Source of the DNA: Tetraselmis striata
Lineage: Eukaryota; Chlorophyta; Chlorodendrophyceae; Chlorodendrales; Chlorodendraceae
Reading direction: 5' to 3'
DNA length: 64,000 nt
Assembly: GCA_006384855.1 (NCBI GenBank)
Contig: VCJN01002503.1
Span: forward strand, 116,001-180,000
In this document: positions 5,930 to 49,865 of the stretch, one piece after another
Layout: every line of letters begins with the position of its first letter
Position numbering within the stretch: the first letter of the stretch is position 1
Position numbers and translations under genes: made by a program
The notes under the pieces: generated by a model
Database searches by the model: none
What the model saw: the letters and a program-made list of their open reading frames with translations, nothing else
Told to the model about the DNA's origin: nothing

Positions 5930-6925
5930 GATAAAAATGTCATACGCTCAAACCGATAATAGCCGGTCGGAGTAGGCAAGAGTGGACAAATCGACGTCAG
6001 GCGGACAAATCGATGAGCAATTAGCGGGATAAGATTGGCCTGCCAACAGCCGGACAAAATCGATACTTATTCGAATGAAGAATTGAGAGGTATCGGCATC
6101 GGATCATTTCTTGGTCGGCGAAACGGGTGCCTATCGGTCTGTCAACATTGGGACGAGTAGCTAAGTCATCAGCGGGACAGACTAGTTCGGTCTACAATGG
6201 GACAAAGCATGTCTCACAATGGGCGACCCAAAAATGTTCGGTCTACAGCGGGACGAAATAATTCCGTCATCGGCGGGACAAAGTAGTTCGGTCTATGGCG
6301 GGACAAAATATGTATGACATCAACGGGTCATACAGTTTGGTCGAGCTGAACTGAATTATTGTTTCATCGTCAACATAACAAAGTAGTTCGGTCAACTGAT
6401 GGACCAAAGTATTTCTATTAGCAGTGGGATGAAATACTTCCGTCATCAGCGAGACGAAATCGATATGTCATCAATGTGACATAATACATCGGCCAACCGC
6501 ATGAAACAATGCTTTTGTCATGGGCAAAAATCGTTATATCATAAGCCGGACAAAATTGTTTTGAAATGAGCGGGACGAAACCGTTTTGTCATCAGAGGGA
6601 CAAAATCGTTATGGCATCAGCGACACAAAAAAGTTATGTCATCAACGAGACGAAATAGTTCTGTCATTAGCGGGACGAACTCGTTCTGTCATGAGCGGAA
6701 CGATCTCGCTCTGTCATCAGTGGGAGCGATGCGAAATAGTTTTGTCCTCAACGGAACGAAATAGGTGTGTCCAACGGGATGAAATAGTTTTGTCATCAGC
6801 GGAACACAATTGTTTTGTCATCAGTGGGACAAAATAGGTTTGTTTGTCATCAGCGAGATGAAATAGGTCTATCACTAGCGACACGACATAGGTCTGTCAT
6901 CATCGGGACAAAATGGGCCTCACCA
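5930..6925. repeat. 25-bp palindromic tandem repeat, array 1
   Basis: Degenerate from about 5930 and regular from about 6170. Each 25-bp unit approximates GACAAAATCGTTTTGTC followed by ATCAGCGG. The 17-base core is a palindrome with a 3-base loop. Spacers between cores are constant, so this is a minisatellite and not CRISPR. The short ORFs across it are by-products of repetition. Confidence 0.85.
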
Positions 6926-8885
6926 CGGAAAAATCGCGTTTTCGTCCTCAACCCACGATCAGTAATAATAGTAGACGCAAATCTTGGTCATCCAAAGAGA
7001 TAGGTGCTACTTGAAGTTCTCATTGTTGCCGTTGTGGAAAGCCATGATCTCGACATGACCGAGGTCATCGGAAAAGAAATGCTCGAGGAACATGCGCACG
7101 TGCTCCTTCGGTCCGGCATGTCTGCTCTCGTCTGCTTGCGCTACGTGATGTACGTGGGTTCGTTATCTAGTACCGAACGCTAGAGGACGTGACGTCTGCG
7201 TTTCGAGACGTCATGCAAGACCTCTCATGCACGGCCGCACATGTAGATGGGCCCTCGATGATCGAAAGAACGCAAGCAACCTCCGTGATCAAACATATAA
7301 TCGAACTTGTCGGATGACAAGTCGTAGCCACCCACGAGAACCTGAGCTAGCCGGTCAAAGGAACGGTTCGAATTGCCGGACTATACGGTCAACGCACGGT
7401 CCATCACTACATCAACGAGAGCCTCTCCGCACTCATTCTACATCTAGTGCACGCACTTCCGCGAGCAACACGGCGACTGCTCGCTAGCCTCCTTGGCGAG
7501 CATGAGGCGGATATGTCCCGAGAGGTGCGCATGCTGATCAGAGACGAGCCCATGCCAGTCTCTTTGTCGGCGACCTCATCGTAGTCCTTGCCCCAGGTGT
7601 GCTTTCTTTTCTAAACCTCCTTACGATCACTGGCACGCGCGTCGCAATCTCACGAGTACATGCCGCGCCACGTACAAGGCCGCACTGATGTAACTGTGGT
7701 GTCTGACGCGCCGGATCCTTGATAGGAGGCAATGCTGTCTGCTGCCGCGATGCTGCAGTGTCGTGCGAGTGAGGGCGGTGGAGTACTGTTATCTGTAGTG
7801 AGGAAAAGCGGCGGCGGATGACCGTTCTCGGACGGGCCGTTGACGTGGGTGCATAATATTAAACCATGGGTCAAAATACTTGACCGAGCTGCTGGATAAA
7901 ACATTGCCACAATACATGATCATGTACAAAGGAGTTTTTTGTAAATTGTACTGCAATAGACCCATTCGCGATAAACTTCCTACAATAACTAATTCCGTGG
8001 TAGTATTTAAGGATATTAAATACTAAATACTAGTTATTTCTATTATTTCGTAGTACGTACATTATTTTGTACTAGGATGTATATACCGGAATCCAATCCA
8101 AGGAATATATCATCCCATACTTGAATATTTTTGCCACGTTATCGTACTCTCGTACCGTTACGACTCTCGAGTAGGGAATATGTCATCCCATACGGGGGTG
8201 CCATTGATCGTAATTTACAGTCGCAGTAGTTTGCCCTTTACATTCGTCGCGGTGCAAAATTGATGCACCTGATGACAACGACGAGCGAGGTCGGTGCGCA
8301 ATAGTGCGCGCAGCTGGTCTAGCAGGCGTCGGAACGGCGGCAAACGGTAATCAGGTCATTCCTACCTCACTCTCACTGCTACCGACCTAGAAACCCGCTC
8401 ATATGTCGCGCTGCCGCCAGGATAGCGCCGAAGAAGAACGCGCCTGTCAAGGGGAAGGAAGACAAGGACGACGCCACCCCAAGTGAGTTGCGCGCACGTA
8501 CAGTAGCTGCCCGCCTGCTCGACGCCTGATGCGGCCATATGTGCTAGCGAGTTCGGGTAAGGTTCTTTCTAGCAGCGGTGTAATATAGGCCCGCTCGAGC
8601 CGGATAGGCATACGAGTCGGTAAGAATAGAAACCCGAACGAGACGGGCGGTGTCATGGTCATGCCAAGAAGTGTTACATGTCCCTTCGAGGCCGCCGAGG
8701 CGGGAGCAGTTCAAGATGCTTGGTGGTGGTGATGGATGGGGGGGGGGGAGGGGGGCAGGTGGAGCTTTTACCCAAATATATTCCATACACAATGGCCGTC
8801 AAGAGTGGTTCCATATTGTTGTCAAGCGCGGGTACTTGAGGACTTATCATATTAAAACCGCATTACTTAAGGACAAGAAGGAAAT
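6926..8885. other. Inter-array region, no gene recognised
   Basis: About 1.96 kb between repeat arrays 1 and 2. It changes from mixed composition (7000-7900) to an AT-rich stretch (7920-8220), then a GC-rich part with a G tract at about 8740. Small ORFs at 7227-7487 and 8650-8898 have no recognisable domain. A Lys-rich run with a following GTGAGT near 8425-8495 could be an exon, but I cannot support it further. Confidence 0.4.
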
Positions 8886-9632
8886 AATTTTGTCATGAGT
8901 GGGATGAGATCGTTTTGTCATGAGCGGGACGAAATCGTTATGTTATCCGGGGGACGAAAACGTCAGTCATCAACGAGACGAAATACTTTTGCCATCAATG
9001 GGACGAAATCGTTCAATCATCAGCGGGACACAATAGTTATGTCATCAGCGGGACAAACTCGTTATGTCATCAGCGGGACAAAATCGTTTTGTTTTAAGTG
9101 GGACGAAAACGGTATGTCATCAGTGGGACGAAATCATTATATGTCATGAGTGGGACGAAATCGGTATGTCATCAATGGGACGAACTCGTTTTATTGTCAT
9201 CAGTGGAACGAAAACAATATGTCATTTGAAGGACGAAAACGAACTGTCATCATTGGAACGAAATCATAATTGTGCCATGTGTGGGACGAAATCGGTATGT
9301 CATCAGTGGGACGAACTCGTTTCATCATCAGTGGGACGAAATCGTCATGTCATCAGTGGGACGAAAACGTTATGTCATCAACGGGACGCAACATGTATGT
9401 CATTAGCGGGACACAATCGTTATGTCATCAGTGGGACAAATTCATTATATGATCAGTGGCGGGACAAAATCGTTTTGTCATAAACGGAACAAAATCGTTT
9501 TGTCATGAGTGGGACAAAATCGGTCAGTCATTATCGGGACGAAATAGGTATGTCACCAGTGGGACAAGAATATTTTGTCATTATTGAGACAAAATCGTTT
9601 TGTCATCAGCGGGACAAAAGTTCTTGACGTAA
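8886..9632. repeat. 25-bp palindromic tandem repeat, array 2
   Basis: About 30 units of the repeat seen at 5930-6925, in the same orientation. Perfect palindromic cores occur near 9472 and 9586. Because 25 is not a multiple of three, any frame through it cycles through all three repeat frames, giving a 25-residue super-repeat that is very unlikely to be real protein. Confidence 0.9.
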
Positions 9633-9661
9633 TATGATTAATCCATAGGTCGAAGGTCCAT

Positions 9662-10920
9662 GGGGACATCAAAATCTACTGAGAAAGCAAAAGAGTTCGA
9701 CGCGCCTGGATCGGTGGTTGGGAGAAAACATAAGGCACCACCTTCTATCCCCAAGCAGCCGGCGGCGTAGAAGAGCCGTGCATCCTTAGCTCATGTCGCT
9801 AAACCAGGCGAGTAATCGGCAGGTAACCCATGGAAAAGCATGTTTTACAAGAGGTAGTGTGCCGCCTTACGGTGTCAACTCGCAAGGAGCAAAATCGGGC
9901 GCTGCTCGATTGAGGGCCAAAATCAAGAGCGGGCATGTCCTCTCAGATTCTCAAATGCGGACATCGCGAAGGTTGATCGATTGCGAAAAGCTAATGCAAG
10001 CTTCTTTTAAACAATCATGTCCTTTCCTCACCTACGATTTGATTTGCGTGTGTTGTGGTATCTGAATATCATGAAACTAAATGTTTTTTTAGAGGTCCTC
10101 CGAAAGGACGCGTAGAGGAGCCGGCAACGCCTCAAGCTGTTGAACCAGAGGTCAAGACATCTCACAACGGCGACATCAACATGTTATTTGCCGACATAGA
10201 CAATATGGTCACCAACGAGAATTCCGGGCTTCCTGTCATTTTCAGCTTCAGATCCGACTTTTTTCGTCGCCCCGCCGCCGGAAGTTTGATCATTATGTTA
10301 TCCAAAGCTACAAGACTGCAATATGGCGGCGCAAAGCTACAAGGTAAGAAAAACCAACCAACTTGCATGATGTACCTCTCCGGATCAGGTGCGAAAAATC
10401 CGAATATACAATGCGGCAACTGACATGCCTTTTTGCATTCTTTTACTATGGAGGAACCCTTCCCTATCCGCCAACAACTTCTATGTGTCTTTTTGGTAGT
10501 CCCTAAGCAAGAAGTTTTCCGCTATCGGTACGAGCCCCTCGCTCTGACCTTCGCCGCCTTCAAGGACCAAGTCGCGACATTCGAAGGCGAGGAGAAGCCG
10601 AGGTTGGCGGATGCGAGTTCCTACAAGCCAGTAGTCGACGTCATCGTCAAGTTCCCGGACTTCGACGGCGTGTGTCACGGCAGCATCGACGCAACCATAG
10701 ACGAAAGGCGAAGCGCATGGTGAAGGAAAGTACCCGGAAATCTACGATAACAAAAAAAGCATCCTCTTTGCGTCGGACAAGATGTACATCGGCCTCTCAC
10801 CGGAAGTCTTCCGCTACATGTCGATGAGGCGGGTCACACCATCGTGGGGGACAGATCCATGCACAAGCTCCTGGCGAGCGACAATGCTAGTATTTCCCAC
10901 ACCAGTATCCAAGTTTAGCG
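9662..10920 (+). pseudogene. Decayed multi-exon gene, part 1 (unknown)
   Basis: A series of plus-strand exon-like segments: MGTSKSTEKAKEFDAPGSVV from 9662; RVEEPATPQAVEPEVKTSHNG with acceptor TTTTTTTAG near 10092 and donor AAG-GTAAGA near 10345; FRYRYEPLALTFAAFKDQ to VKFPDFDGVCHGSIDATIDE at 10500-10710; KYPEIYDNKKSILFASDKM; and GHTIVGDRSMHKLLASDN to about 10915. The segments sit in different frames with internal stops (for example TGA after RRSAW), so the gene is broken. I recognise no family. The order continues on the far side of repeat array 3. Confidence 0.45.
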
Positions 10921-10935
10921 TATAATTGCGGAATT

Positions 10936-11227
10936 TCAAAGTAGCGTTGTCCCGGGGACAAAATCGTTATGTCATCAGCGGGGGAAAATCGTTATGTCGT
11001 GAATAGGACAAAATCGTTATGTCATCAGCGGGATGAAATAGGTGTGTCATCACTGGGACGAAGTAGGTTTGTCATTAACGGGACAGAATAGGTGTGTCAT
11101 CACCGGAACAAAATCGTTCCGTCATCAGCGGGACGAAATAGGTATGTCATCAACGGGACGAGATATATAGGTCTGTCATCAGCTGGACAATATCGTTCTG
11201 TCATCAACATGACAAAATCGTTCGGTA
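10936..11227. repeat. 25-bp palindromic tandem repeat, array 3
   Basis: About 11 units of the 25-bp repeat, same orientation as arrays 1 and 2, lying between two coding-like blocks of the decayed gene and so probably intronic or inserted. Confidence 0.85.
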
Positions 11228-16976: not shown

Positions 16977-17099
16977 ACAGCTAAAAATTTATACACGAAG
17001 AGGCGAAATAAACCCGAAATGTGACGTCATCATGGTCGCGCGGTTGTGGTATGCTGGTCGTGGTCTCACTTTATTCGGTCATATTTGCGAGCAAAAAAC

Positions 17100-17299
17100 T
17101 GTAGGGTTTCCTTGGGAGGAACGACCTAGGAAACCCTGGTTTTCGCAGCGCCGTGCGTCAGGGTTAAGTGACGACCCTGCCGGCCCGGTACGCCAGTACC
17201 GGCCAGCGCCGGTCCGGCGGCGCCCTTTAGCCGAGTATAAAGGGCGGCCGCGGACCGGGGGCACCTTCAGTTGTTGGAAGGCACCCGACTATATTGTCT
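17100..17299 (+). repeat. E1 split direct repeat A1 (promoter-bearing)
   Basis: A 200-bp repeat, identical to A2 at 20057-20252 apart from a few substitutions and a 4-base insertion. It starts with an inverted repeat AGGGTTTCC ... GGAAACCCT and contains a TATA box. Confidence 0.9.
17236..17241 (+). promoter_or_regulatory. TATA box of E1, inside a hairpin
   Basis: TATAAA lies about 150 bp upstream of the gag ATG. It is part of a perfect inverted repeat, CGCCCTTTA ... TAAAGGGCG. The same arrangement occurs in the A1 repeats of E2 and E3 and in the A2 copies. Confidence 0.6.
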
Positions 17300-17389
17300 T
17301 CTACGACTGGTACATTTGCGTTTCGTCTTCGACTACAAAAATTCAAATTTCTTCTGCGTTCTGTAGTGTGTTTGATCCCGGCACTCACC

Positions 17390-18442
17390 ATGGCTCGCTC
17401 CGCGAGTACGTCTTGGGCGTGGCTTTTTGTCTCGCTCATGGTGCTGTCGCCTTGCTTTCTCGTCTCAGTTTTAGCAGTAGACAAGTTTGAACTCGTTTGG
17501 AACGAGTTACTGGACTCCCGTAAAGCTCTTCGTGAGCAACTCGTTACGCGCGAAAATCATCTCACTGTCCTAGGCGGCGACACTCTACCTGCAGACGGGG
17601 TAGCTGAATCTCCCTCTCTCGTCGCCGCTAGACAGGCAGTAGCGGATACTTCTGCTGCTCTACTCCGTATCGAACGAGAGGTTTCTGAGCTTAGGCAGGC
17701 AGTCGCGTCGTCGAGCGGTCCGTCCACTTCGGCTTCGGCTTCGAAACGCGTTGCGGAGGGGGACGCCGACTACGATCGCAAGGGCAAGAGATCAGCTCAA
17801 CCTCCGGCTATGGAAGCACAGTCTCGCTCCATCAACGCACCCGAGGATTGCTGGCTGGACAAAGAGGGTAAGGTTCACCGCCGCCATACCGCTGATGCTC
17901 GTATTCTTCAACGCGACCTAGACGACGTCTTCCAGATCTATGACCTTTTGGCACCGGCGGAGGAGCCTATGCGTGACTTCGTGGAGGACGGCACCGATCT
18001 TTTTGCTTCCTCGCCAGCGTCGTCTGCGGAGCTGTTCAAGACGATTACCGCGGCCCTGGCTTTGTGTACCACAGTGGCTCTTCGGATTAACAAGCGTGGC
18101 AAGAAGCTGCATGTGGAGCACGAGTACGGCGCGGAAGTCGCCAAGGAGTTCGATGCAGTGGACCCTCTCGGCGAGAAGGGCTCAGCGGACTACAAGGAGC
18201 TGAAGAAGGCGATTGAGAAGGTCAAGGCCAAGAAACCTTCCTCTTCCTCTTCTTCGCGCGCAGAGCCTTCTTCCTCTTCTCGCGAGCCCGAGTCTTTTCA
18301 CCGTGGGAGCGACAACGGGAGGGAGGGCGGCCGTCGCGAGGAGAAGTCTCCAACTGGTCGGTCTTCTGCTGCGGACATCACCTGTTATCGCTGCCAGAGG
18401 AAGGAACACTTCAGTAGGGACTGCCCGAGTGCACGTCGATGA
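17390..18442 (+). CDS. gag: E1 Gag-like protein with CCHC zinc knuckle
   Basis: The start ATG at 17390 has a strong context (CACCATGG), giving 350 codons. Residues 1-30 are hydrophobic (SWAWLFVSLMVLSPCFLV), unusual for a nucleocapsid protein and resembling a signal or membrane anchor. A coiled-coil-like charged region and a Ser-rich stretch follow. The C-terminus has a CCHC knuckle, CYRCQRKEHFSRDC, where Glu replaces the Gly before His seen in E2 and E3. It probably binds element RNA. The frame is intact. Confidence 0.85.
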   Translation: MARSASTSWAWLFVSLMVLSPCFLVSVLAVDKFELVWNELLDSRKALREQLVTRENHLTVLGGDTLPADGVAESPSLVAARQAVADTSAALLRIEREVSELRQAVASSSGPSTSASASKRVAEGDADYDRKGKRSAQPPAMEAQSRSINAPEDCWLDKEGKVHRRHTADARILQRDLDDVFQIYDLLAPAEEPMRDFVEDGTDLFASSPASSAELFKTITAALALCTTVALRINKRGKKLHVEHEYGAEVAKEFDAVDPLGEKGSADYKELKKAIEKVKAKKPSSSSSSRAEPSSSSREPESFHRGSDNGREGGRREEKSPTGRSSAADITCYRCQRKEHFSRDCPSARR

Positions 18443-18895
18443 AGCTGTGGAGTCTGCAATCCTCCTGGCCTGGCCAGTGATGGTGTTTCATGTAGCTGCA
18501 GTTAAGCCTCCGGGCGACTGTTAGCCCTCCTCCGGGAGCTGAGCTCAGGCTCGTGTCATAACAGCTCTGATCTTCTCAGGGAGAGTCACCTGTTAAGTGG
18601 TGTTTCTCCGAGAGATACCTCGTGTGTAATACATATGATGTCCCTGCGACTCCGTGCTGCCCCTGGCAGTTGTCTCGGCAACTTTCCATAAGTCAGCCGG
18701 CGATGCATTCGTGTAATGGGCGGCACACCCTGTGTGACGATTCATATCTCCCGTCGTGTCGGAGCGAGATTAATTTGAAAATACTGTTATTTTCAGTTCA
18801 GACGATTTCGAGTTCAGACTCACTGTTTGATTCATGCAGCAGTCATCCAAGCTGCTTGCTGATCACTATGATGCTGTCTGTGGCGTTGGCATTTT

Positions 18896-19843
18896 GTGAC
18901 GGTTTTAACGTCAGCTGATTTTGAGCTTCCTCATGAGCCGGCTCTGGACATAAATTCTCCTGTGGAATCAGCCGGTGCTATCCGTAAAGGCTGGCAATTT
19001 TGGGACAGCTTCACTGACTCAATCAGAGACAGTCAAGTCATAGATTGGGTCAGGCATAGCTGCCGTATGAACTGGGCTGATGGTCCCGCTCCACCCAGTC
19101 ATCTGCCAAATCACCCTTCCGCGCTGCAGCACCCCGATTTTATTGATGGGCAGATCGCTTTGTTGTTGCCACTGGGCCATATTAGAGAAGAACCTATGCG
19201 TCCTGTGGCGCTGAACCCTTTGGGTGTAGTTCCCAAACCCCATGGTGGACTAAGGCTGAGCTGCTATCAGCGTCATGTCGACAAACACTTGGTTTACACT
19301 CCCTTTAGGATGGGGTCGTTATCTAAGTTGTCAGACCTGGTGAACCCCGGCGACATGCTGACCAGCATAGATATGACTCAGGGCTATTACCATGTCCGCC
19401 TCCATGACCCAGCTGCTCCTTACAGCGGAACTGAATGGAGAGGAAAATTCTACACTTGGCGAGTTCTATGCTTTGGGCTGTCTGATGCCCCCCCGCTGCT
19501 TTTCTACAAGTCATGGGAGTTCTGGTGCGACACTGGCGCAGTAGGGGCATCAAAATGCTATGCTATCTGGATGACTAGCTGTGCATCTCTGACTCTGTCA
19601 GTTTGGCACGTAGTAGGTGCTTCCGCCGCCGCTAACGCAGACATCCCGCTCACTACATGGGGCCAGCATGGTGGCTGGAAGTCAACCTCCACTCAGCTGT
19701 GCTATATGGGGCTGCATGAGGAGCACGGTCTGTCCGTGTCGCGTGCGATCCTGTCACTTGCCGAAGAGGACGAACTGGACGATAGTGACGGTGACAGTTC
19801 ACCATCCGACACTGACTCGGATACCTCCCGGGACGCAACTTAG
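18896..19843 (+). pseudogene. pol: E1 pol remnant: RT joined to recombinase tail
   Basis: The N-terminal part carries reverse transcriptase motifs: VVPKPHGGLRLSCY, SIDMTQGYYHVRLHDP and FGLSDAPPLLF. The catalytic YLDD is encoded at 19564-19575 but in the next frame and followed by a stop, so a frameshift lies just before it. At about 19615 the sequence jumps to the C-terminus of the tyrosine recombinase (GASAAANADIPLTTWGQ, then CYMG with the presumptive catalytic Tyr). The RT end, RNase H and recombinase N-terminus are deleted. The apparent start codon is GTG, so the true start is uncertain. Confidence 0.8.
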
Positions 19844-19988
19844 GTCCCGTTCTAGTGGCAATTCTATACCGTGTTGGTGATCCCCCGTTCCTGTGTTTGT
19901 TCCTGATTGAATATAATTCCCGGTATAATTTGGCTCACATATGTCCGTGTACGGGCCCCGCCAGACCGGCCACTGTTCTTTCATCTGT

Positions 19989-20056
19989 TGGATCTTTCGG
20001 TCCCAGCCGACCCCGTACATTTTGATGCAAAATCTACGCTGTCTAGCTGCGAAAAC
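19989..20056 (+). repeat. E1 split direct repeat B1
   Basis: A 68-bp repeat ending CTAGCTGCGAAAAC, matching B2 at 20613-20681, and directly abutting A2. Confidence 0.9.
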
Positions 20057-20252
20057 TGTAGGGTTTCCTTGGGAGGAACGACCTAGGAAACCCTGGTTTT
20101 CGCAGCGCCGTCAGGGTTAAGTGACGACCCTGCCGGCCCGGTACGCCAGTACCGGCCGGGTCCGGTCCGGCGGCGCCCTTTAGCCGAGTATAAAGGGCGG
20201 CCGCGGACCGGGGGCACCTTCAGTTGTTGGAAGGCACCCGACTATATTGTCT
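20057..20252 (+). repeat. E1 split direct repeat A2
   Basis: Second copy of A1, immediately after B1. After TATTGTCT it diverges from A1 into element-specific 3' sequence. Confidence 0.9.
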
Positions 20253-20612
20253 CCCACCCACCCGCCCGGAGATAGTTATTCGCTTGTGTGGTACGTTTCC
20301 GGATGCTGCTCGATTTAGATTAGGGATAGTCTGGTTAGTTGTGAAAGCGCCTGAGGTGGGGAGTGAATATCATTTTGATATACGCCATCCCACAGGGGTG
20401 TTGCGTGTCCGATAAGCCCAGGTGCGGCAGCAATTAGTCAGGCTTTCCCAGCGTCTTAGCCGTGATGAGAGGCCGAGAGCAGCATAGCGGAATGTACTGT
20501 CCTGATGAGCCACGTGATCGCTGGTGGCATGTAATTTACAAACACCGGCGGGGGCTCGGGACGTGCGGCGCCTTTCCGAACACCATCCGGTCTGGCGGCC
20601 CCGTACCAGTCG

Positions 20613-20681
20613 TGGATCTTTCGGTCCCAGCCGACCCCGTACATTTTGATGCAAAATCTACGCTGTCTAGCTGCGAAAACT
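20613..20681 (+). repeat. E1 split direct repeat B2 (3' end of element)
   Basis: Matches B1; host sequence starts after CTGCGAAAACT. Confidence 0.85.
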
Positions 20682-29034: not shown

Positions 29035-30616
29035 GACTGCTGCCTTTAGGCAGGATATAACGGCATAGTAGATGGCTGCCAACCTTTTAGTATGCGGATT
29101 TATATGACAAAAAGGGAATTTAATTGCGCATATGCTTTACAATACCATACAATTGCAATGCAGCACCTCTAATACCTAATATTTCCTGGCGGCACGCCGC
29201 AGATTGCTGCAGCGCTGCACCGCAGATGCTGCCTTTAGGCATGCTTTTAGTGCCTAGATGGCTGCAAACCATTTAGTATGTGGGGTTGCATGGCATAGAA
29301 GGGATATGAACACGCACCGGCTTGACGATGCTATACAAATTGCAAGGCATTACCTCTAATACCTAATATTTCCTGGCGGCACGCCGCAGATTGCTGCAGC
29401 ACTGCACCGCAGATGCTGCCTTAAGGCAGGCTTTAAGTGCCTAGATGGCTGCACACCATTTAGTATGCGGGGTTGCATGGCATACAAGGGATATGAACAC
29501 GCATCGGCTTGACGATACTATACAGATTGTAAGGCAATACCTGATATTTCCTGGCGGCACGCCGCAGATTGCTGCAACACTGCACCACAAATTGCTACAA
29601 CGCTGCACCGCAGATGCTGCCTTTAGGCATGCTTTAAGTGCCTAGATGGCTGCAAACCATTTATTATACGGGGTTGCATGGCATAGAAAGGATATGAACA
29701 CGCATCGGCTTGACGATACTATACAAATTGCAAGGCATTACCTCTAATACCTGATATTTCCTGGCGGCACGCCGCAGATTGCTGCAGCACTGCACCGCAG
29801 ATGCTGCCTTAAGGCATGCTTTAAGTGCCTAGATTGCTGCACACCATTTAGTATGCGGGGTTGCATGGCATACAAGGGATATGAACACGCATCGGCTTGA
29901 CGATACTGTACAGATTGCAAGGCATTACCTCTAATATACCTGATATTTCCTGGCGGCACGCCGCAGATTGCTGCAGCATTGCACCGCAGATGCTGCCTTA
30001 AGGCATGCTTTAAGTGCATAGATGGCTGCAAACCATTTAGTATGCGGGGCTGCATTGCATAGAAGGGATATGAACACGCACCGGCTTGATGATACTATAC
30101 AAATTGCAAGGCAATACCGCCAATACTGATATTCCTGGCGGCACGCCGCAGATTGTTGCAGCGCTGCACCGCATATGCTGCCGTCAGGCATGCTTTAAGT
30201 GCCTAGATGGCTGCAAACCATTTAGTATGCGGAGTTGCATTGCAAAGAAGGGATGTGAACACGCGCCGGCTTGACAATACTATACGGATTGCAAGCCAGT
30301 ACCTCTAATATACCTGATATTTCCTGGCGGCACGCCGCGGATTGCTGCAGCGCTGCACCGCAGATGCTGTCTTTAGGCATGCTTTAAGTGCATAGATGGC
30401 TGCAAACCATTTAGTATGCGGAGGTGCATTGCAGAGAAGGGATGTGAACACGCGCCGGCTGGACAATACTATACGGATTGCAAGCCAGTACCTCTAATAC
30501 CTAATATTTCCTGGCGGCACGCCGCAGATTGCTGCAGCGCTGCACCGCAGATGCTGTCTTTAGGCATGCTTTAAGTGCCTAGATGGCTGCAAACCATTTA
30601 GTATGCGGGGTTGCAT
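29035..30616. repeat. 187-bp satellite, about 8.5 copies
   Basis: The marker TTCCTGGCGGCACGCCGC begins at 29183, 29370, 29548, 29758, 29947, 30132, 30321 and 30508, spacings of 187, 178, 210, 189, 185, 189 and 187. Units also share GGCTGCAAACCATTTAGTAT and GAACACGC-CGGCTTGAC. Short ORFs through it are repeat by-products. Confidence 0.95.
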
Positions 30617-30632
30617 GAATCACCAACATGAT

Positions 30633-30738
30633 CCCCGGCCGCGGCGCGTTGGCGCCGCGCTGCCCCGGCCGCCGCGCGTTGGCGCCCCGCTGCCCCGGCC
30701 GCCGCGCGTTGGCGCCCCGCTGCCCCGGCCGCGCTAGC
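30633..30738. repeat. 30-bp GC minisatellite, 3.5 copies
   Basis: Unit CGCCGCGCGTTGGCGCCCCG plus CTGCCCCGGC; the reverse complement is the unit of the array at 57898-58577. It directly follows the satellite. Confidence 0.9.
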
Positions 30739-34428: not shown

Positions 34429-34696
34429 CCCCCCTCCCCCGCCAGTTGCATAGCTCCCAATGCTGCCCCCAAACAACAATGTAAGCCACCGTTCTGCCGC
34501 TAGGAATGCTCATTATAGCCTCTACCCCAATACTGCATGGAATGATGCGCACTACTGCTGGCAAGGGCTCGCGCATATTCTGCGCCCTGCCCCACCTGCG
34601 GTGTTGCGTATGATGCACACAAACAACATGAGCTACTACATATTCATATATGAAATTCACAGCTTTTACATTTCACGATTTCAGTCCACAGCAAAC
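34429..34696. other. 3' flank of unknown gene, left flank of E2
   Basis: No gene seen. It ends CAGCAAACTG, which resembles the B-end of the element inserted here. Confidence 0.5.
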
Positions 34697-34892
34697 TGAA
34701 GGGTTTCCTTGGGAGGAACGACCTAGGAAACCCTGGTTTTCGCAGCGCCGTCAGGGTTAAGTGACGACCCTGCCGGCCCGGTACGCCAGTTCCGGCCGGC
34801 GCCGGTCCGGCGGCGCCCTTTAGCCGAGTATAAAGGGCGGCCGCGGACCGGGGGCGCCTTCAGCTGTTGGAAGGCACCCGACTATATTGTCT
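34697..34892 (+). repeat. E2 repeat A1 with TATA box
   Basis: Matches A1 of E1, with the TATAAA hairpin at about 34829-34838. Confidence 0.9.
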
Positions 34893-34981
34893 TCTACGAC
34901 TGGTACATTTTCGTTTATCTTCGACTACAAAAATTCAAATTTCTTCTGCGTTCTGTAGTGTGTTTGATCCCGGCACTCACC

Positions 34982-36031
34982 ATGGCTCGCTCCGCGAGTC
35001 CGTCTTGGGCGTGGCTCCTTGTCTCGCTTGTGGTGCTGTCGCCTTGCTTTCTCGTCCCTGTTTTAGCAGTAGACAAGTTTGAACTCGTTTGGAACGAGTT
35101 ACTTGAGTCTCGCAGAGCTCTTCGTGAGCAACTCGTTTCGCGCGAGAATCATCTCACTGTCCTAGGTGGCGACACTCTTCTTGCAGACGGGGTAGTTGAA
35201 TCTCCCCCTCTCGTCGCCGCTAGACAGGCAATTGCTGATACTTCTGCTACTCTACTCCGTATCGAACGAGAGGCTGCTGAGCTTAGGCGGGCAGTCGCGT
35301 CGTCGAGCGTTCCGTCCACTTCGGCTTCAGCTTCGAAACGCGTTGCGGAGGGGGACGCCGACTACGACCGCAAGGGCAAGAGACCAGCTCAACCCCCGGC
35401 TGCGGAAGTGCCGTCTCGCACCATCCACGCACCCGAGGATGGCTGGTTGGACAAAGATAGTAAGGTTCACCGCCGCCATACCGCTGATGCTCGTATTCTT
35501 CAACGCGACCTAGACGACGTCTTCCAGATCTATGACCTTTTGGCACCGGCGGAGGAGCCTGTGCGTGACTTGGTGGAGGACGGCACCGATCTCCCTGCTT
35601 CCTCGCCAGCGTCGTCTGCGGAGCTGTTCAAGAAGATCACCGCGGCACTGGCTTTGTGTACCACTGTAGCTCTTCGGATTAACAAGCGTGGCAAGAAGCT
35701 GCATGTGGAGCACGAGTACGGCGCGGAAGTCGCCAAGGAGTTCGATGCAGTGGACCCTCTCGGCGGGAAGGGCTCAGCGGACTACAAGGAGCTGAAGAAG
35801 GCGATTGAGAAGGTCAAGGCCAAGAAACCTTCCTCTTCTTCTTCGCGCGAGAAGCCTTCTTCATCTTCTCGCGAGCCCGAGTCTTTTCACCGTGGGAGCG
35901 ACGACTGGAGGGAGGGCGGCCGGCGCGAGGAGAAGTCTCCTTCTGGTCGGTCTTCTGCTACGGACATCACCTGTTATCGCTGCCAAAGGAAGGGACACTT
36001 CAGTAGGGACTGCCCGAGTGCACGTCGATGA
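34982..36031 (+). CDS. gag: E2 Gag-like protein with intact CCHC knuckle
   Basis: ATG 34982 in the same CACCATGG context as E1, 349 codons, about 90% identical to E1 by eye. It keeps the hydrophobic N-terminus (SWAWLLVSLVVLSPCFLV), the Ser-rich stretch and the consensus knuckle CYRCQRKGHFSRDC. This is the best preserved gag of the three and could be functional. Confidence 0.88.
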   Translation: MARSASPSWAWLLVSLVVLSPCFLVPVLAVDKFELVWNELLESRRALREQLVSRENHLTVLGGDTLLADGVVESPPLVAARQAIADTSATLLRIEREAAELRRAVASSSVPSTSASASKRVAEGDADYDRKGKRPAQPPAAEVPSRTIHAPEDGWLDKDSKVHRRHTADARILQRDLDDVFQIYDLLAPAEEPVRDLVEDGTDLPASSPASSAELFKKITAALALCTTVALRINKRGKKLHVEHEYGAEVAKEFDAVDPLGGKGSADYKELKKAIEKVKAKKPSSSSSREKPSSSSREPESFHRGSDDWREGGRREEKSPSGRSSATDITCYRCQRKGHFSRDCPSARR

Positions 36032-36485
36032 AGCTGTGGAGTCTGCAATCCTCCTGGCCTGGCCAGTGATAGTGTTTCATGTAGCTGCAGTTAGGCCTCC
36101 GGGCGACTGTTAGCCCTCCTCCGGGAGCTGAGCTCAGGCTCGTGTCATAGCAGCTCTGATCTCCTCCGGGAGAGTCACCTGTTAGGTGGTGTATCTCCGA
36201 GAGATACCTCGTGTGTAATACATATGATGTCCCTGCGACTCTATGCTGCCCTGGCAGTTGTCTCGGCAACTTCCCGTCAGTTGGCCGGCGATGCATTCGT
36301 GTAAAGGGCGGCACACCCTGTGGGACGATTCATATCTCCCGTTGTGTCGGGGCGATATTTAATTTGAAAATACTGCTATTTTCAGTTACAGACAATTTCG
36401 AGTTCAAACTCATTGTTTGATTCATGCAGCAGTCATCCAGGCTGCCTGCTAACCACTATGATGCTGTCTGTGGCGTTGGCATTTT

Positions 36486-36803
36486 GTGACGGTTTTAACG
36501 TCAGCTAAATTTGAGCTTCCTCATGAGCCGGCTATGGACGTCAATTCTCTTGTGGAATCGGCCGGTGTTATCCGTAAAGGCTGGCTATTTTGCGACAGCT
36601 GCTCTGAATCAGTCGATCGGAGAAAGTCGAGTCATAGATTGGGTCAGGCATGGCTACCGTATGAACTGGGCTGATGGTCCCGCACCACCCATTCATCTGC
36701 CAAATAGCCCTTCCGCGCTGAAGCACCCCGATTTTATTGATGGGCATATAGCTTTGTTATTGCCACTGGGCCATAGCAGAGAAGAACCTATGCGTCATGT
36801 GGA
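36486..36803 (+). pseudogene. pol: E2 pol remnant (N-terminal only)
   Basis: Matches the start of E1 pol (ADGPAPPIHLPNSPSAL, HPDFIDGHIALLLPLGHS) and stops at the deletion before any catalytic RT motif. A small insertion near 36610 shifts the frame. Confidence 0.8.
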
Positions 36804-36894
36804 TTATATATGGATATTCCCTGTATAATTTGACTCACATATGTCCGTGCGCGTGTACGGGCCCCGCCAGACCGGCCACTGTTCTTTCATCTGT

Positions 36895-37158
36895 TGGATC
36901 TTTCGGTCCCAGCCGACCCCGTACATTTTGATGCAAAATCTACGCTGTCTAGCTGCGAAAACTGTAGGGTTGCCTTGGGAGGAACGACCTAGGAAACCCT
37001 GGTTTTCGCAGCGCCGTCAGGGTTAAGTGACGACCCTGCCGGCTCGGTACGCCAGTTCCGGCCGGCGCCGGTCCGGCGGCGCCCTTTAGCCGAGTATAAA
37101 GGGCGGCCGCGGACCGGGGGCGCCTTCAGTTGTTGGAAGGCACCCGACTATATTGTCT
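36895..37158 (+). repeat. E2 B1-A2 junction
   Basis: B1 36895-36962 directly followed by A2 36963-37158. The inverted repeat across the junction is retained (A2 has GGGTTGCC in place of GGGTTTCC). Confidence 0.9.
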
Positions 37159-37517
37159 CCCACCCACCCGCCCGGAGACAATTAGTCGGTTGTGTGGTAC
37201 GCTTCCGGATGCTGCTCGATTTAGATTAGGGTTAGTCTGGTTAGTTGTGAAAGCACCTGAGGTGGGGAGTGAATATCATTTTGATATACGTCATCCCACA
37301 GGGGTGTTGCGTGTCCGATAAGCCCAGGTGCGGCAGCAATTAGTCAGGCTTTCCCAGCATCTTAGCCGTGATGAGAGGCCGAGAGCAGCATAGCGGAATG
37401 TACTGTCCTGATGAGCCACATGATCGCTGGTGGCATGTAATTTACAACACCGGCGGGGGCTCGGGACGCGCGGCGCCTTTCCGGACACCATCCGGTCTGG
37501 CGGCCCCGTACCAGTCG

Positions 37518-37585
37518 TGGATCTTTCGGTCCCAGCCGACCCCGTACATTTTGATGCAAAATATACGTTGTCTAGCTGCGAAAAC
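37518..37585 (+). repeat. E2 repeat B2
   Basis: Matches B1; host sequence resumes with CAGTCCTC. Confidence 0.85.
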
Positions 37586-43302: not shown

Positions 43303-43681
43303 ATCCAGCGGAGCGTCGATTTTTCGGCGGTGAGTTTTATTGCCGTACGGGTACCCGTATAGTGCAGCGGGTCGGGCCTATAGGTGCATGACTGAAGCGC
43401 TTATCTACTGGAATGTACTACTAAGTACTATAATCCACCCACCCACCCGCCCGCCCACCCACGGTCCTTAATTACACAGCCATCCGATACGAACTCACGG
43501 TTGGGAGGCTATGAGTACTGGTACTCGCTACTCGCTGCTGGTAATGGAAAAAACAACTCTAGTACTTCAAAGCGCTGGCAATGCGAACGCTCGTTGCTGG
43601 TATTGGTACTCGCTACTCGCTGCTAGTACTGCTGGTACTGGTATTGGTACTCGCTACTCGCTGCTGGTAATGGAAAAAAAA
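43303..43681. repeat. Duplicated host segment, left part (occupied copy)
   Basis: From GAGCGTCGATTTTTCGGCGG to GGTAATGGAAAAAAAA, matching 49267-49692. Includes a (CCCA/CCCG)n microsatellite and repeats of TACTCGCTACTCGCTGCTGG. The segment is interrupted by E3 and resumes at 48585. Confidence 0.9.
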
Positions 43682-43873
43682 TGTAGAGTTTCCTTGGGAG
43701 GAACGACCTAGGAAACCCTGGTTTTCGCAGCGCCGTCAGGGTTATGTGACGACCCTGCCGGCCCGGTCTGGACCGGCTGGCGCCAGTCCGGCGGCGCCCT
43801 TTATCCGAGTATAAAGGGCGGCCGCGGATCGGGAGCGCCTTCAGCTGTTGGAAGGCACCCGACTATATTGTCT
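43682..43873 (+). repeat. E3 repeat A1
   Basis: Same repeat as in E1 and E2, slightly shorter, with TATAAA near 43812. Confidence 0.88.
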
Positions 43874-43962
43874 TCTACGACTGGTACATTTTCGTTTTAT
43901 CTTCAACTCCGAATTTTAAATTTCTTCTGCGTTCTGTCGTGTGTGTGATCCCGGCACTCACC

Positions 43963-45017
43963 ATGGCTCGCTTCGCGAGTCCGTCTTGGGCGTGGCTCTT
44001 TGTCCCGCTCGTGGTGTTGTCGCCGTGCTTTCTCGTCCTTGTTTTAGCGCGCGCGGTGGACAAGTTTGAACTCGTTTGGAACGACTTACTCGAGTCTCGC
44101 AATGCTCTTCGTGAGCAACTCGTTACGCACGAAAATCATCTCACTGTCCTAGGTGGTGACACTCCACCTGCTAACGAGGTACATGAGTTCCCCCCTCTCG
44201 TCGCCGCTAGACAGGCAGTAGCCGATACCTCTGCAACTCTACTCCGTATCGAACGTGAGATTTCAGAGCTTAGGCAGGCGGTCGCGTCGTCGAGCGGTCC
44301 GTCCACTTCAGCTTTAGCTTCGAAACGCGTTGCGGAAGGGGACGCCGACTACGATCGCAAGGGCAAGAGGCCAGCTCAACCCCCGGCTGCGGAAGTGCCG
44401 TCTCGCACCATCAACGCACCCGAGGATGGCTGGCTCGACAAAGATGGTAAGGTTCACCGCCGCCATACCGCTGATGCGTGTATTCTTCAACGCGACCTAG
44501 ACGATATCTTCAAGATCCATGACCTTTTGGCACCGGCGTAGGAGCCTCTGCGTGACTTGGTAGAGGACGGCACCGATCTTCCTGCATCCTCTCCGGCTTC
44601 GTCTGCGGAGCTGTTCAAGGCGATTACCGCGGCTCTGGCGTTGTGTACCACAGTGGCTCTTCGGATCAACAAGCGTGGCAAGAAGCTTCATGTGGAGCAC
44701 GATTACGGCGCGGAGGTTGCCAAGGAGTTTGATGCAGTGGACCCGCTCGGCGAGAAGGGCTCGGCGGACAACAAGGAGCTGAAGAAGGCGATTGAGAAGG
44801 TCAAGGCCAAGAAACCTTCTCTTCTTCTTCGCGCACGAAGCCAGCTTCCTCTTCTCGCAAGCCTGCGTCGTCTCGCCGTGGGAGCGACAACCGGAGGGAG
44901 GGCGGCCGTCATGAGGAGAGGACTCCACCTGGTCGGTCTTCTGCTGCGGACATCACATGTTACCGCTGCCAGAGGAAGGGTCACTTCAGTAGGGACTGCC
45001 CGAGTGCACGTCGCTGA
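43963..45017 (+). pseudogene. gag: E3 gag, nonsense and frameshift mutated
   Basis: ATG 43963. It aligns with the gags of E1 and E2 throughout but has TAG where they have GAG, near 44540, after DLLAPA. A further base loss in the Ser-rich stretch near 44820 shifts the frame, and the terminal knuckle (CYRCQRKGHFSRDC) is again in the original frame. Not functional. Confidence 0.88.
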
Positions 45018-45487
45018 AGCTGTGGAGTCTGCAATCCTCCTTGTTTGTCCAGTGATGGTGTTTCGTGTAGCTGCAGTAAGTTCGGCCTCCGGGCAACTAT
45101 TAGCCCTCCTCCGGGAGCTGAGTTCAGGCTCTTGTCGTGGCAGCTCTGATTCCCCTGAGGGGGAATCACCTGTTAGTAGTATATCTCTGAGATATACTTC
45201 GTGTGTAATACATATGATGGCCCCTGCTATCTTGTGCTGCCCCTGGCAGTTGCCTCTGCGACTTTTCATAAGTTGGCTGGTAATTTCATATGTCTGAAAA
45301 GCGGCACACCCAGTGTGTCGGTTCAAATCTCCCGGTGTGACGAAGCGATATTTATTTGAAAATCCTGTTCTTTTCAGTTACTACAGAAAATTTCGATTTC
45401 GAACTCCCTGTTTGATCCATGCATCATTCATCCAAGCTGCTTGCTGACCACTATGACGCTGTCTGTGGCGTTGGCATTTTGTGACAG

Positions 45488-47744
45488 TTTTAACGTCGGC
45501 TTATTTTGAGCTTCCTCATGAGCCGGCACTTGACATCAATTATCCCGTGGATTCTGCCGGTGTTATCCGTAAAGGCTGGCAATTTTGTGACAGCATCACT
45601 GACTCAGACAGAGACAGTCAGATCAAAGATTGTGTCAGACATGGCTATCGTATGAACTAGGCTGATGGACCCGCTCCATCCAGCCATCTACCAAATCACC
45701 CTTCTGCTCTTCAGCACCCTGATTTTATTGATGGGCAGATCGCTATGATGCTGCCGCTGGGCCATATCAGGCACAGCAGCCTGCCCGCTTTGTTTTGTCG
45801 AGGTCTACTCTTTGTCCTGAAGTCCCTGTCACACCTGATCCCATGCATACGAGTAGTGCAGGTCCAGGTAGATAATAAAAGTATGCTACCAGTTTGCCGG
45901 CACGGCTCACGCTCGAGCCTGTCGCTGGACTCTGTAGCTCAACAAGTCTACCTCCTATGTCTCTCCTTGGGAGCGTCACTCTCTATTGTGTGGGTCTCCC
46001 GAGAGGAGAATCCGGACTCTGACGAGATCTCTAAGATGCTCGACAAAGACGATTGGCAGCTGCTGCCCAAGTTTTTTCGGCGCCTCAGCTTGAAGTGGGG
46101 CATTCACCATATTGACCGGTTCGCATCTGATCTGAACCATCAAGTATCGAGATTCTACTCACGGTTCTGTGCCCTGGATGCGAAGGCGTTGATGCTTTCA
46201 GCCACTTCAGGGGCGGTAATGTGAACAACTTGATTAATGCTCCATTTAGTTGCATTGGCCGGGTTATGCGCAAGCTGAAGTCCGATACGATCGCGCGGTC
46301 GCTACAATTATAGTGCTTTTATGGCCTAGTCAGTCTTGGTGGACATTAGTAGCTCCTGACGGTAGGCATCTAGCTGACTGTGTGGTCGATTGGGTCATGC
46401 TCGACAGCGGCGAGGAGCTATTTAGTTCTGGCGAGGGCAGTGGTAACAGCCGCCCGAGCTGCTCAAGGAACTGGAGCGTCCTCGCCTTGCGTGTCGACTG
46501 CCGGCCTGGCGCGTAGCGCACCCCGGCACGCCACCGCTGCCTCCACCCAAGGTGGTGTGACCGTCACAGCTCATGATTCGGCCATCACCCGTGGGTGTTC
46601 CTCCGCCTGGCCGAGTAACCCGGTGGCATCCTCCGATGTGACCGGCACATCACTGTTTAATGCTTTGATCACGGCGGCTCCACGGCAGTGGGCAGCTGGC
46701 TGTAACCGTGGCTATGCCTACATATGGAATCGATTTGTGATGTTTTGCGAAGCTCGGACACCCCCCATGTGCCCTATGCCAGCGGCTCCGATTGTGGTGG
46801 CTATTATTTTACAAGCTCGGTTGGACGCCCCGTCTACCAACAGTTATTCCGTGATCAGGTCCGCATCTGCGGCGGTATCGCAGATGCACCGGCTGAATAT
46901 GCATCCCAGTCCTACCTTATCACCGTGCTGTTGCGCGTCGGTCCGGGAGGCAGCCAAGCGCACCCTGGGGCTCGCCGTGAAGATCGCCAATGAACCCTTC
47001 GCATGGCCTGACATCGCGAAGCTCGTCCGGCTTCGCTGCCGGGACGACTCAGGTATTTGTTCTTGGATAGTAGCAGTCGCCGCAGCCGTTAGTTTTGCCG
47101 GCTTCTGCCGCTACAGCGACCTCTGGGTCCTTCGGTCTGAGGACGTCTCCTTCCTCTCGACTTACCCTCGAATTCCGCTTCGTGAAGCGCAAGAACGACC
47201 AGCACCGCCTATGTGGCAAGGTGCGTGTCGCTAAGATGCCCCGCGCAGTGGTGTGCGTCTATGGACTCCTGCGCCGGTATCATGCCGTCATGATCCGCTG
47301 GGCTACACCCACCGTGCCAGTTTTCCCGGGGTTCAGCGGCACAGTCCTGCGGCACAAGGGAGAGCTAGGGATGGTCCCCTCCTCCTCCCCTATTGAGTAC
47401 CCCACGTTCAGACGCTACCTCGGGCGGTGTTTCAGCAGCCCGCTGCTCGCCCCTGCGATGACCGAGGCCGCTTTCCTGACCCGGTTCGGCCCCCAGTCCA
47501 GCCGGACTGGCGGCGCTTCCGCCGCCGCTAACGCGGACATCGCGTTTGCAACATGGGGCCAGCGCGGTGGCTGGAAGTCAACCTCTGCTCAGCTCCGCTA
47601 TATGGGGCTGGATGAGGAGCACAATCTGTCCGTGTCGCGTGCGATCCTGTCACTTGCCGAAGAAGACGAGCTGGACGATAGTGACGCACGGTGACGGTTC
47701 ATCACCCGACACCAACTCAGATTCCTCCCAGGACGCAATTTAGG
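45488..47744 (+). pseudogene. pol: E3 pol: RNase H and tyrosine recombinase
   Basis: After a short pol start, a deletion near 45765 leads into RNase H (VVQVQVDNKSMLPVCRHGS, LSIVWVSREENPDSDEISKM, then WGIHHIDRFASDLNHQ). The recombinase follows: AAAVSFAGFCRYSDLWVLRS holds the presumptive first catalytic Arg, SSRTGGASAAANADIAFAT the second Arg, and AQLRYMGLDEE the nucleophile Tyr. Frameshifts lie near 46260-46290, near 47160 and near 47690. It would have synthesised DNA and integrated the circular product. This copy is inactive but shows the full C-terminal order of the family. Confidence 0.85.
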
Positions 47745-47888
47745 TCCCGACCTAGTGGCAATTTTATACCGTGCTTGTGATGTCCCATGCCTGTGTCTGT
47801 ACCTAAATGTATGTAATTCCCTGTATGATTGGACTCTTATGTGTCCGTGTACGGGCCCCGCCAGACCGGCCACTGTTCGTTCATCTGT

Positions 47889-48152
47889 TAGATCTTTCGG
47901 TCCTAGCCGACCCTGTACATTTTGATGCAAAATCTACGCTGTCTAGCTGCGAAAAATGTAGGGTTTCCTTGGGAGGAACGACCTAGGAAACCCTGGTTTT
48001 CGCAGCGCCGTCAGGGTTATGTGACGACCCTGCCAGTCCGGTCCGCCTAGACCGGCCGGCGCCAGTCCGGCGGCGCCCTTTATCCGAGTATAAAGGGGGG
48101 CCGAGGATCGGGAGCGCCTTCAGTTGTTGGAAGGCACCCGACTACATAGTCT
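47889..48152 (+). repeat. E3 B1-A2 junction
   Basis: B1 47889-47956 followed directly by A2 47957-48152. The junction reads GCGAAAAATGTAGGG, and the 5' host junction likewise ends in AAAAATG-type sequence. Confidence 0.88.
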
Positions 48153-48516
48153 CCCTCCCGCCCACCCGGAGACAATTATTCGCTTGTGTGGTACGTTTCC
48201 GGATGCTGCTCGATGTAGATTAGGGATAGTGTGGTTAGTTGTGAAAGCGCCTGAGGTGGATGGGGAGCGAAAATCAGTATTGATATACGCCATCCCACAG
48301 GGGTGCAGAGTCGCCGATAAACCCAGGTGCTGCAACAATTAGTCAAGCTTTTCCAGCGTCTTGGCCGTGATGAGAGGCCGGGAGCAGAATAGCGGAATGT
48401 ACTGTCCTGATGAGCCACGTAATCGCTGGTGGCATGTAATTTACAACACCGGCGGGGGCTCGGGACGCGCGGCGCCTTTCCGGACACCATTCGGTCTGGC
48501 GGCCCCGTACCAGTCG

Positions 48517-48584
48517 TGGATCTTTCGGTCCCAGCCGACCCGGTACATTTTGATGCAAAATCTACGTTGTCTAGCTGCGAAAAC
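48517..48584 (+). repeat. E3 repeat B2
   Basis: Matches B1; host sequence resumes with TCTGGTACGTACTTCAAAGC. Confidence 0.85.
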
Positions 48585-49266: not shown

Positions 49267-49865
49267 GATCCAGCGAAGCGTCGATTTTTCGGCGGTGAGC
49301 TTTATTGCCGTACGGGTACCCGTATAGTGCAGCGGATCGGGCCTATAGGTGCATGACTAAAACGCTTATCTACTGGTATGTACTACTAAGTACTATAATC
49401 CACCCACCCACCCGCCCACCCGCCCACCCGCCCACCCGCCCACCCGCCCACCCGCCCGCCCAGTCCTTAATTACACAGCCGTCCGATTACGATCTCACGG
49501 TTGGGAGGCTATGAGTACTGGTACTCGCTACTCGTTGCTGGTAATGGGAAAAAAACTATGGTAGCGACTACTTCAAAGCGCGGGCAATGCGAACGATCGC
49601 TGCTGGTATTGGTACTCGCTACTCGCTGCTGGTATTGATAGTATTGCTGGTACTGGGACTGGTACTCGCTACTCGCTGCTGGTAATGGAAAAAAAAATTC
49701 TGGTACTTCAAAAGCGCTGGCAATGCAAACGCTCGTTGCTGGTAATTCAAAGCGCTGGCCATGCAATTCATGGAATTGTAGGCCAGTGATATAGAACCCG
49801 TTCTTTTAAAATTTTCTGAAAAATCGACGCATCGCTGATTCAACTGTCAAGTTACTTCATATAGA
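49267..49865. repeat. Duplicated host segment, empty copy
   Basis: Uninterrupted counterpart of 43303-43681 plus 48585-48765. The unoccupied insertion point is at about 49690-49699 (ATGGAAAAAAAAATTCTGG). Contains a (CCCACCCG)n microsatellite at 49400-49462. Confidence 0.9.

Follow-up and report, generated by a model that had tools for sequence, protein, structure and literature searches.

What is an inverted repeat doing at the point where two repeats of a retrotransposon meet, and has it any part in bringing the element into a chromosome? The question is raised by a junction at position 20056 of the window (the whole 64-kb stretch of DNA analysed here, part of a 224-Mb assembly), which a first-pass annotation had read as the recombinase site of a PAT-like element. 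To our knowledge, the way in which DIRS-type cDNA enters chromosomes is unsolved; published reports or proposals involve circles, single-stranded cDNA and a 3-bp junction, and we know of no physical attachment site for elements of this type.

The elements and their repeats

Three elements in the window, E1, E2 and E3, belong to one family (family 1) with the layout A1-body-B1.A2-tail-B2:

17099..20679, + strand: element E1 (family 1, PAT-like, truncated body), from the first C of CTGTAGGG to the last A of GCGAAAA
17099..17299, + strand: A1 repeat of E1, left end, from the A1/A2 alignment (inner end approximate)
19989..20055, + strand: B1 repeat of E1, from the B1/B2 alignment
20056..20252, + strand: A2 repeat of E1, from the repeat alignment (inner end approximate)
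20613..20679, + strand: B2 repeat of E1, right end, from the repeat alignment
34696..37584, + strand: element E2 (family 1, non-autonomous), junction crossover between 36961 and 36962
43681..48583, + strand: element E3 (family 1; RT and YR pieces with breaks), junction crossover between 47955 and 47956

Aligned over E1–E3, the A repeat measures about 200 bp and the B repeat about 67 bp. Genome-wide we collected 396 A-starts (A1 and A2 pooled, at most three mismatches) and 227 B.A-type matches (at most two mismatches), the latter including some left ends with a B-like host flank (e.g. C73:60242). The split direct repeats A1 ... B1A2 ... B2 are found in 35 complete copies, E1–E3 included (37 rows minus one duplicate listing, L013_777 = L014_4977, and L056, which has no internal junction). 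The copies fetched all share the same ends, and the full site is present only where B meets A: left outer ends consist of A with host DNA replacing CTGCG, and right ends of B only. On these points, the PAT-like layout included, the first-pass annotation is borne out. A candidate promoter, TATAAA, is seen at 20189-20194 in A2 and at the same place in A1.

A longer copy, L024, has the inverted repeat intact. It is 5.8 kb end to end, with uninterrupted Gag, RT and YR (tyrosine recombinase) frames, and encodes a zinc-knuckle Gag, RT, RNase H, a Dam-like domain and then a 459-aa frame at the recombinase position. Its Pfam matches are RVT_1 (3.9e-16), RT_RNaseH (5.4e-6) and a Dam-like methyltransferase (PF05869; E-value 3.5e-5, 24 bits, below the curated cut-off of 28.1); the YR frames of L024 and of a second family (described below) had no Pfam recombinase match. 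The YR frame carries a box-I Arg, (H/Q)xxR, a later His and a Tyr, which we take to be the catalytic residues of a tyrosine recombinase and by which the 459-aa frame was assigned (the second family has R...HxxR...H...Y; family 1 has QxxR, with Q replacing the H of HxxR). A phmmer comparison of the family-2 YR with PDB chains returned two unrelated matches only (E-values 0.27 and 1.1), with no IntI likeness by sequence, and the predicted YR structures had pLDDT values of 38.6 and 32.9, both below 40 and unusable. Among 125 YR-search matches there are 40 family-1 places with a stop-free YR frame of at least 450 codons, and an exact 32-base junction (a pattern that leaves the right arms uncovered) lies at most 250 bases downstream of at least 13 of the 40 uninterrupted frames, among the places listed. 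Searches of viral contigs and genome contigs gave no confirmed relatives.

On sequence grounds the family is classed as a PAT-like element of the DIRS order, its YR being assigned from motif and position. It shares with the PAT-like, TOC and kangaroo elements the A1-B1-A2-B2 split direct repeats (as set out in PMC4157794 and PMC3266345), the order Gag-RT-RNaseH-MT-like-YR-like and the lack of target duplication at the sites examined. However, the YR is forward in the present elements, unlike kangaroo; the present Gag has a zinc knuckle, stated in PMC4157794 to be absent from TOC and kangaroo; and a B1.A2 hairpin with an off-centre crossover is not described in the parts of PMC4157794 and PMC3266345 consulted.

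We also observed head-to-tail A-body-B arrays joined at B.A (L050/L051 on C2224, L052/L053 on C1942 and L021 on C1135), with five junctions 2244 bp apart, four junctions about 3541 bp apart and, in L021, the order A-B.A-B.A-B2 with a spacing of 2946 bp. We did not accept these arrays as proof of recombinase-driven insertion at the junction, as a private T in B1, which has no counterpart in B2 and is found at all three junctions read on C2224 (of five internal ones), fits local duplication. In another case, a segmental tandem duplication of about 4.74 kb contains a family-1 insertion (L013 and L014 on C547, L034 and L035 on C779).

Hairpin and crossover point at the B1.A2 junction

In E1 the junction can be divided into the following parts:

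20046..20056, + strand: left outer arm GCTGCGAAAAC (R'-like), from complementarity and fold; spans the B1/A2 boundary
20057..20059, + strand: TGT opposite a single G (20095), from the fold; partly extrahelical, beside the crossover
20060..20072, + strand: left inner arm AGGGTTTCCTTGG (L'-like), from arm complementarity
20069..20085, + strand: hairpin end loop (17 bases; the core of the first-pass annotation), from the fold
20082..20094, + strand: right inner arm CCTAGGAAACCCT (L''-like), from arm complementarity
20096..20106, + strand: right outer arm GTTTTCGCAGC (R''-like), from fold and complementarity; wholly within A

The arms reported earlier at 20047-20068 and 20086-20105 were recovered, and a further G-C pair (20046/20106) lengthens them outward. 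Complementarity is 11 of 11 between the outer arms (20046-20056 with 20096-20106) and 12 of 13 between the inner arms (20060-20072 with 20082-20094). Folded as single-stranded DNA, the + strand reaches −24.7 kcal/mol (z −7.55) and the − strand −22.3 kcal/mol (z −6.69), a difference of 2.4 kcal/mol in favour of the + strand, and none of 200 shuffles was as good for either strand. The same arrangement is found at the junctions of E2 and E3, as had been claimed, with one inner-arm mismatch in E2 (AGGGTTGCC) and a C to A change in E3 at the last base of the left outer arm, which is the crossover base (X). With X counted as C, 20 of the 29 distinct junctions have two perfect arms; the arms are also intact in the longer, partly broken copies L022, L023 and L025 (X is A in L022 and T in L025). 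Nine perfect inverted repeats (arms of at least 11, gap 20-60) were found in the 64-kb window, two of them the E1 and E2 junctions, against 0-2 such single-arm repeats in each of 10 block-shuffled windows. Since the window holds other single-arm repeats of such size, the unusual feature of the junction is its two stacked arm pairs.

The position of the crossover was worked out from the ends of family-1 copies and from related sites without an insertion:

20055/20056, + strand: crossover point AAAA^C, inside the left arm, placed by 39 left ends, 36 right ends and unoccupied paralogues
43500..43620 (repeat region about 43488-43700), + strand: unoccupied paralogue of the host repeat of E3, from repeat comparison
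49500..49760 (region from about 49488), + strand: two further unoccupied paralogues of the host repeat of E3, from repeat comparison

The family-1 termini and the unoccupied sites together put the exchange at AAAA^C, within the left arm beside the bulge and about 21 bases from the symmetry centre. The first-pass annotation placed the recombination site correctly, at the B1-A2 junction; the 17-base stretch proposed as its core is contradicted by the host/element boundaries and unoccupied sites, which point to the left arm.

In the 39 family-1 left flanks the first, second and third bases before the cut are A in 37, 38 and 38 cases, and the fourth is A in 28, G in nine, T in one and C in one. 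After the cut come C (37) or A (two), then TG (the selection filter for family-1 left ends), then T (36), A (two) or C (one). The left-end candidates L053, L055 and L056 were left out as spurious or junction-like, and two of the 39 flanks derive from one duplicated insertion (C547 and C779). At the right ends (36 alignable out of 39; L037, L045 and L049, which are indel-shifted, were left out) the AAAA of the element is followed by C and then by host sequence, mostly C or T. The left flanks vary as host DNA does, with a strong preference for A; immediately before the cut some copies have another host base (C in L023, T in L026 and, in the second family, G in L091). The earlier remark that host DNA left of the insertions resembles the B-end holds for the last three or four bases (AAA/AAAA) and fails beyond them; the likeness is a target preference.

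An unoccupied paralogue of the L041 site matches the joined flanks at 80 of 91 positions over 91 bp and reads GAAA^CCAAGG, with one single-base gap four bases right of the point and neither duplication nor loss at the point itself. At L023 the host AAAC is kept at the left end and the right end reads GCGAAAA; two unoccupied repeats related to this site have the same C in one and T in the other, and A in neither. The three unoccupied repeats of the E3 site read GGTAATGG(A/G)AAAA..., followed by sequence resembling the right flank of E3, and differ by small indels at the point (AAAAAACAACTC, AAAAAAACTATG and AAAAAAAAATTC; one of the three has no C after the A-run), so that they support the place of the crossover and not its exact base. 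No target duplication was seen at the sites examined (the L041 paralogue, with which the E3 repeats agree, apart from the small indels at the point). A search with the joined flanks of E1 matched only E1's own two flanks and gave no unoccupied site.

The internal crossover base itself varies. X is C in 21, T in five, A in two and G in one of the 29 distinct family-1 junctions (8/29 non-C, for comparison with about 0.6-1.1 changes per column outside the search patterns; a few of the comparison columns touch a search pattern), and genome-wide exact-flank matches have C in 106 cases and another base in eight. In the window X is at 20056, 36962 and 47956. Both termini are C in six of seven distinct complete copies in which X is not C (L010, the two C547-duplication copies, L022, L028 and L030), and E3 has A at both the left end and the internal junction. 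The three C547 duplication copies differ at X (T, T and C). This variation could come from untemplated addition, mutagenic nicking or a selection of C-bearing intermediates.

A second family

The YR search led to a second lineage (family 2), whose recombinase has 37–42% identity to that of family 1 in the search (about 40%; 40–41% between the two YRs) and of which 116 A-starts are found in the genome. Its B.A junction reads ...GGGCACGGCTCGGAAAA^CTGAGCGTTTTCAATTGCCG...CGGCATTTGAAAATGCCGGTTTTCCGTGCCGTAGCCC, and apart from GAAAAC/GTTTTC its arms have little in common with those of family 1. The parts of the fold follow the order seen in family 1, with the crossover at the same place beside the bulge and a long stem of about 40 pairs; for L063 it reaches −48.4 kcal/mol (z −11.09, 0 of 200 shuffles as good). 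Twelve family-2 left ends (L087/L093, one duplicated left end, are not among them) show host nAA^CTG: the first base before the cut is A in 11 and G in one, the second A in all 12, the third A in nine and T in three, the fourth A in five, T in four and G in three. Of 15 family-2 right ends listed, the spurious one of L059 was excluded; the 14 counted have AAAA, followed by C in 13 and by T in L068. L099 and L100 were considered as a third family and rejected; the YR of L102 is a frameshifted relative of that of family 2, and two families are therefore counted.

Over 25 junctions, 94.9% of 1232 cells pair across the B/A boundary. Eight pairs have two-sided changes, against a shuffled mean of 1.7 (0 of 500 shuffles reach eight). 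The structure scores 0.074 for covariation, and slid structures score 0.016-0.023; the number of further pair types is no higher than in shuffles (312/500) for the same 25 junctions. Five of the eight two-sided pairs come from L099 alone, an old frameshifted relative (fold z −3.50, 2/200 shuffles as good), and without it three are left, a number reached by 18 of 500 shuffles. Covariation support without L099 is modest; the stronger argument is that the same structure, in different letters, is present in two families with 40% identical YRs.

The two families also bear on how sharp the exchange is. The fourth base left of the cut is variable at the left ends (11/39 in family 1 and 7/12 in family 2) and invariant at the right ends (0/36 and 0/14 variable). 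Under random resolution, P for an overlap reaching this base is 0.0042 for family 1 and 0.0080 for family 2 (their product is no formal combined test; the unbiased-column mean was recounted as 28/25, with the same conclusion as 27/25). As the right ends carry no host letters at the fourth base, any exchanged overlap is probably no longer than 3-4 bp; for the third base P is 0.097, which leaves room for an overlap of about 3 bp (the AAC triplet). One host repeat (..GGTAATGGAAAAA..) received insertions of both families, E3 of family 1 and two copies of family 2 (L094, seen at its left flank, and L070, at its right flank), at approximately the same A^C position.

Possible modes of integration

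The z-scores of the hairpin, the AAAA^C cut in its outer arm, the same anatomy in family 2, the pairing, the sharp exchange and the attC layout suggest to us that the inverted repeat may be the attachment site of a PAT-like tyrosine-recombinase retrotransposon, used as a folded, attC-like single strand. Both the folded single strand as substrate and the element's own YR as the acting enzyme would be part of this reading. Inverted arms suit double-strand binding equally well; it is the attC-like layout, together with the linear single-stranded cDNA reportedly described for DIRS by Malicki in 2020 (cited in PMC9210276), that makes us favour the folded single strand, at just under an even chance.

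The site is whole only where B meets A, that is, within the element, and would be so too, according to the published model, at the joined ends of the cDNA (a circular intermediate is the DIRS model of PMC3266345). A single strand could fold into outer arm ...GCGAAAA^C, small bulge, inner arm, loop, inner arm and outer arm; the recombinase would recognise the folded shape and cleave the A/C step at the outer arm's inner end; and the cut strand would be joined to a host AA(A)^C site, with the shared triplet as microhomology. One strand would be exchanged at a single point and replication would complete the integration; the left side of the cut would then be host sequence, the right end would carry the bases of the element, and the target would not be duplicated. 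Once integrated, the element has its site divided by the cut, R' lying at its right end and the remainder at its left end, like an integrated cassette. The variability of X and its mismatch with the termini go unpredicted by the folded single-strand model. That a eukaryotic retrotransposon integrates its cDNA through a folded single-stranded site as integron cassettes do (one-strand exchange at AA^C, then replication, with the split repeats preserving the hairpin) is a wider proposal, which we put forward more tentatively.

In attC the bottom strand is cut between A and C of the AAC in the R' box, the palindrome is conserved and the sequence otherwise is not, recognition is of the folded single strand, and the exchange involves one strand and is resolved by replication (as described in PMC2727003 and PMC4792948). 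A palindrome with two arm pairs, an unpaired spacer and a loop, as in attC, is present in families 1 and 2. The layout of outer arm, spacer, inner arm and loop is shared (on the + strand from R'-like GCTGCGAAAA^C to R''-like GTTTTCGCAGC), as are the A/C cut of AAC at the inner end of the outer arm, the triplet shared with the target and the otherwise free sequence. In contrast to attC, the present site is in a eukaryotic retrotransposon, its spacer is a bulge of one or two bases, there is no IntI-like sequence match and the targets are dispersed host sites, not attI. We do not class the B.A site as attC; our claim is that it may work like one. The attP of CTXphi-type phages (PMC5357621, as far as consulted) is similar in that a fold of the element's own single strand is proposed as substrate, but there the host Xer acts at dif, whereas here the sites are dispersed and of AAC type and the YR is presumably element-coded.

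The reading could be replaced by an ordinary double-strand reaction, in which a double-stranded circle carries the B.A site, recombinase protomers bind to the arms, and recombination takes place between the 3-bp AAC junction and a host triplet of the same sequence, following the published DIRS1 scheme; we judge this quite possible, if somewhat doubtful. The DIRS1-like 3-bp circular junction (AAC, AAT or AAA) is described as recombining with an identical genomic triplet without duplication (PMC3266345), circular DIRS-1 intermediates are stated to be verified (PMC5633606), and the host AA(A)^C targets and lack of duplication found here fit. An AAN-type triplet joins element and host without duplication in both systems; however, the DIRS1-like junction is, according to PMC3266345, the meeting of two inverted terminal repeats, whereas the present termini are not mutual inverted repeats and the crossover falls inside a single arm of a palindrome. 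In canonical tyrosine-recombinase sites a spacer of 6-8 bp separates the inverted binding domains (PMC4792948), but here the crossover is about 21 bases off the symmetry centre, the arms fail to flank it and there is no sign of a 6-8 bp exchanged overlap; the long family-2 stem (about 40 pairs) and the bulge beside the cut in both families also argue against it. The double-strand reaction explains target and termini as well as the folded strand does, and the hairpin less well.

The hairpin may instead serve cDNA synthesis or act in the RNA (in pausing, in packaging or in a template switch between B1.A2 and the termini), and fall at the recombination point by coincidence. With split direct repeats, B1.A2 is the sole place with the full terminal sequences, and the ends have to be restored from it. 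If the TATAAA noticed by eye some 133 bases into A were a promoter, transcripts started in A1 would lack the A1 hairpin, and the variable X is also in keeping with such a role. Yet both families, whose arms differ, have the crossover at the inner end of the outer arm, and the bulge asymmetry, which snap-back copying would presumably erase, persists, and we regard this role as unlikely. Snap-back copying as the origin of the arms is likewise disfavoured by the persisting bulge difference. A reading in which the repeat arose by chance or descent and plays no part in mobility could draw on the likeness of family-1 copies to one another, which makes conservation within family 1 say little, and on the single-arm repeats of such size in the block-shuffled windows; it is very improbable, given that family 2 keeps the pairing with different arms and that 0 of 200 shuffles were as good in both families.

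Among the papers listed by literature searches, in a literature largely without subscription papers, no title or abstract links DIRS or PAT elements to a folded single-strand attachment site. The folded single-strand reading offers a defined site whose crossover is resolved to the base and whose structure recurs in two diverged families, and it makes a prediction that can be sharply tested; if it is true, folded single-strand sites for tyrosine recombinases would have arisen in eukaryotes as well as in integrons and CTX-type phages.

Other repeats were observed in the window. A 30-bp GC-rich tandem array (57806-58652) is matched in inverted orientation, over at most 100 bp and at up to 97%, some 27 kb away (30633-30732). 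Repeat arrays at 6200-11139, 29183-30620 and 61148-62318 have spacings of 25, about 187 and 368 bp. An interrupted inverted repeat (242-507 with 920-1180) has three arm pairs of 78-94 nt that are 87–93% complementary, and is perhaps a foldback element.
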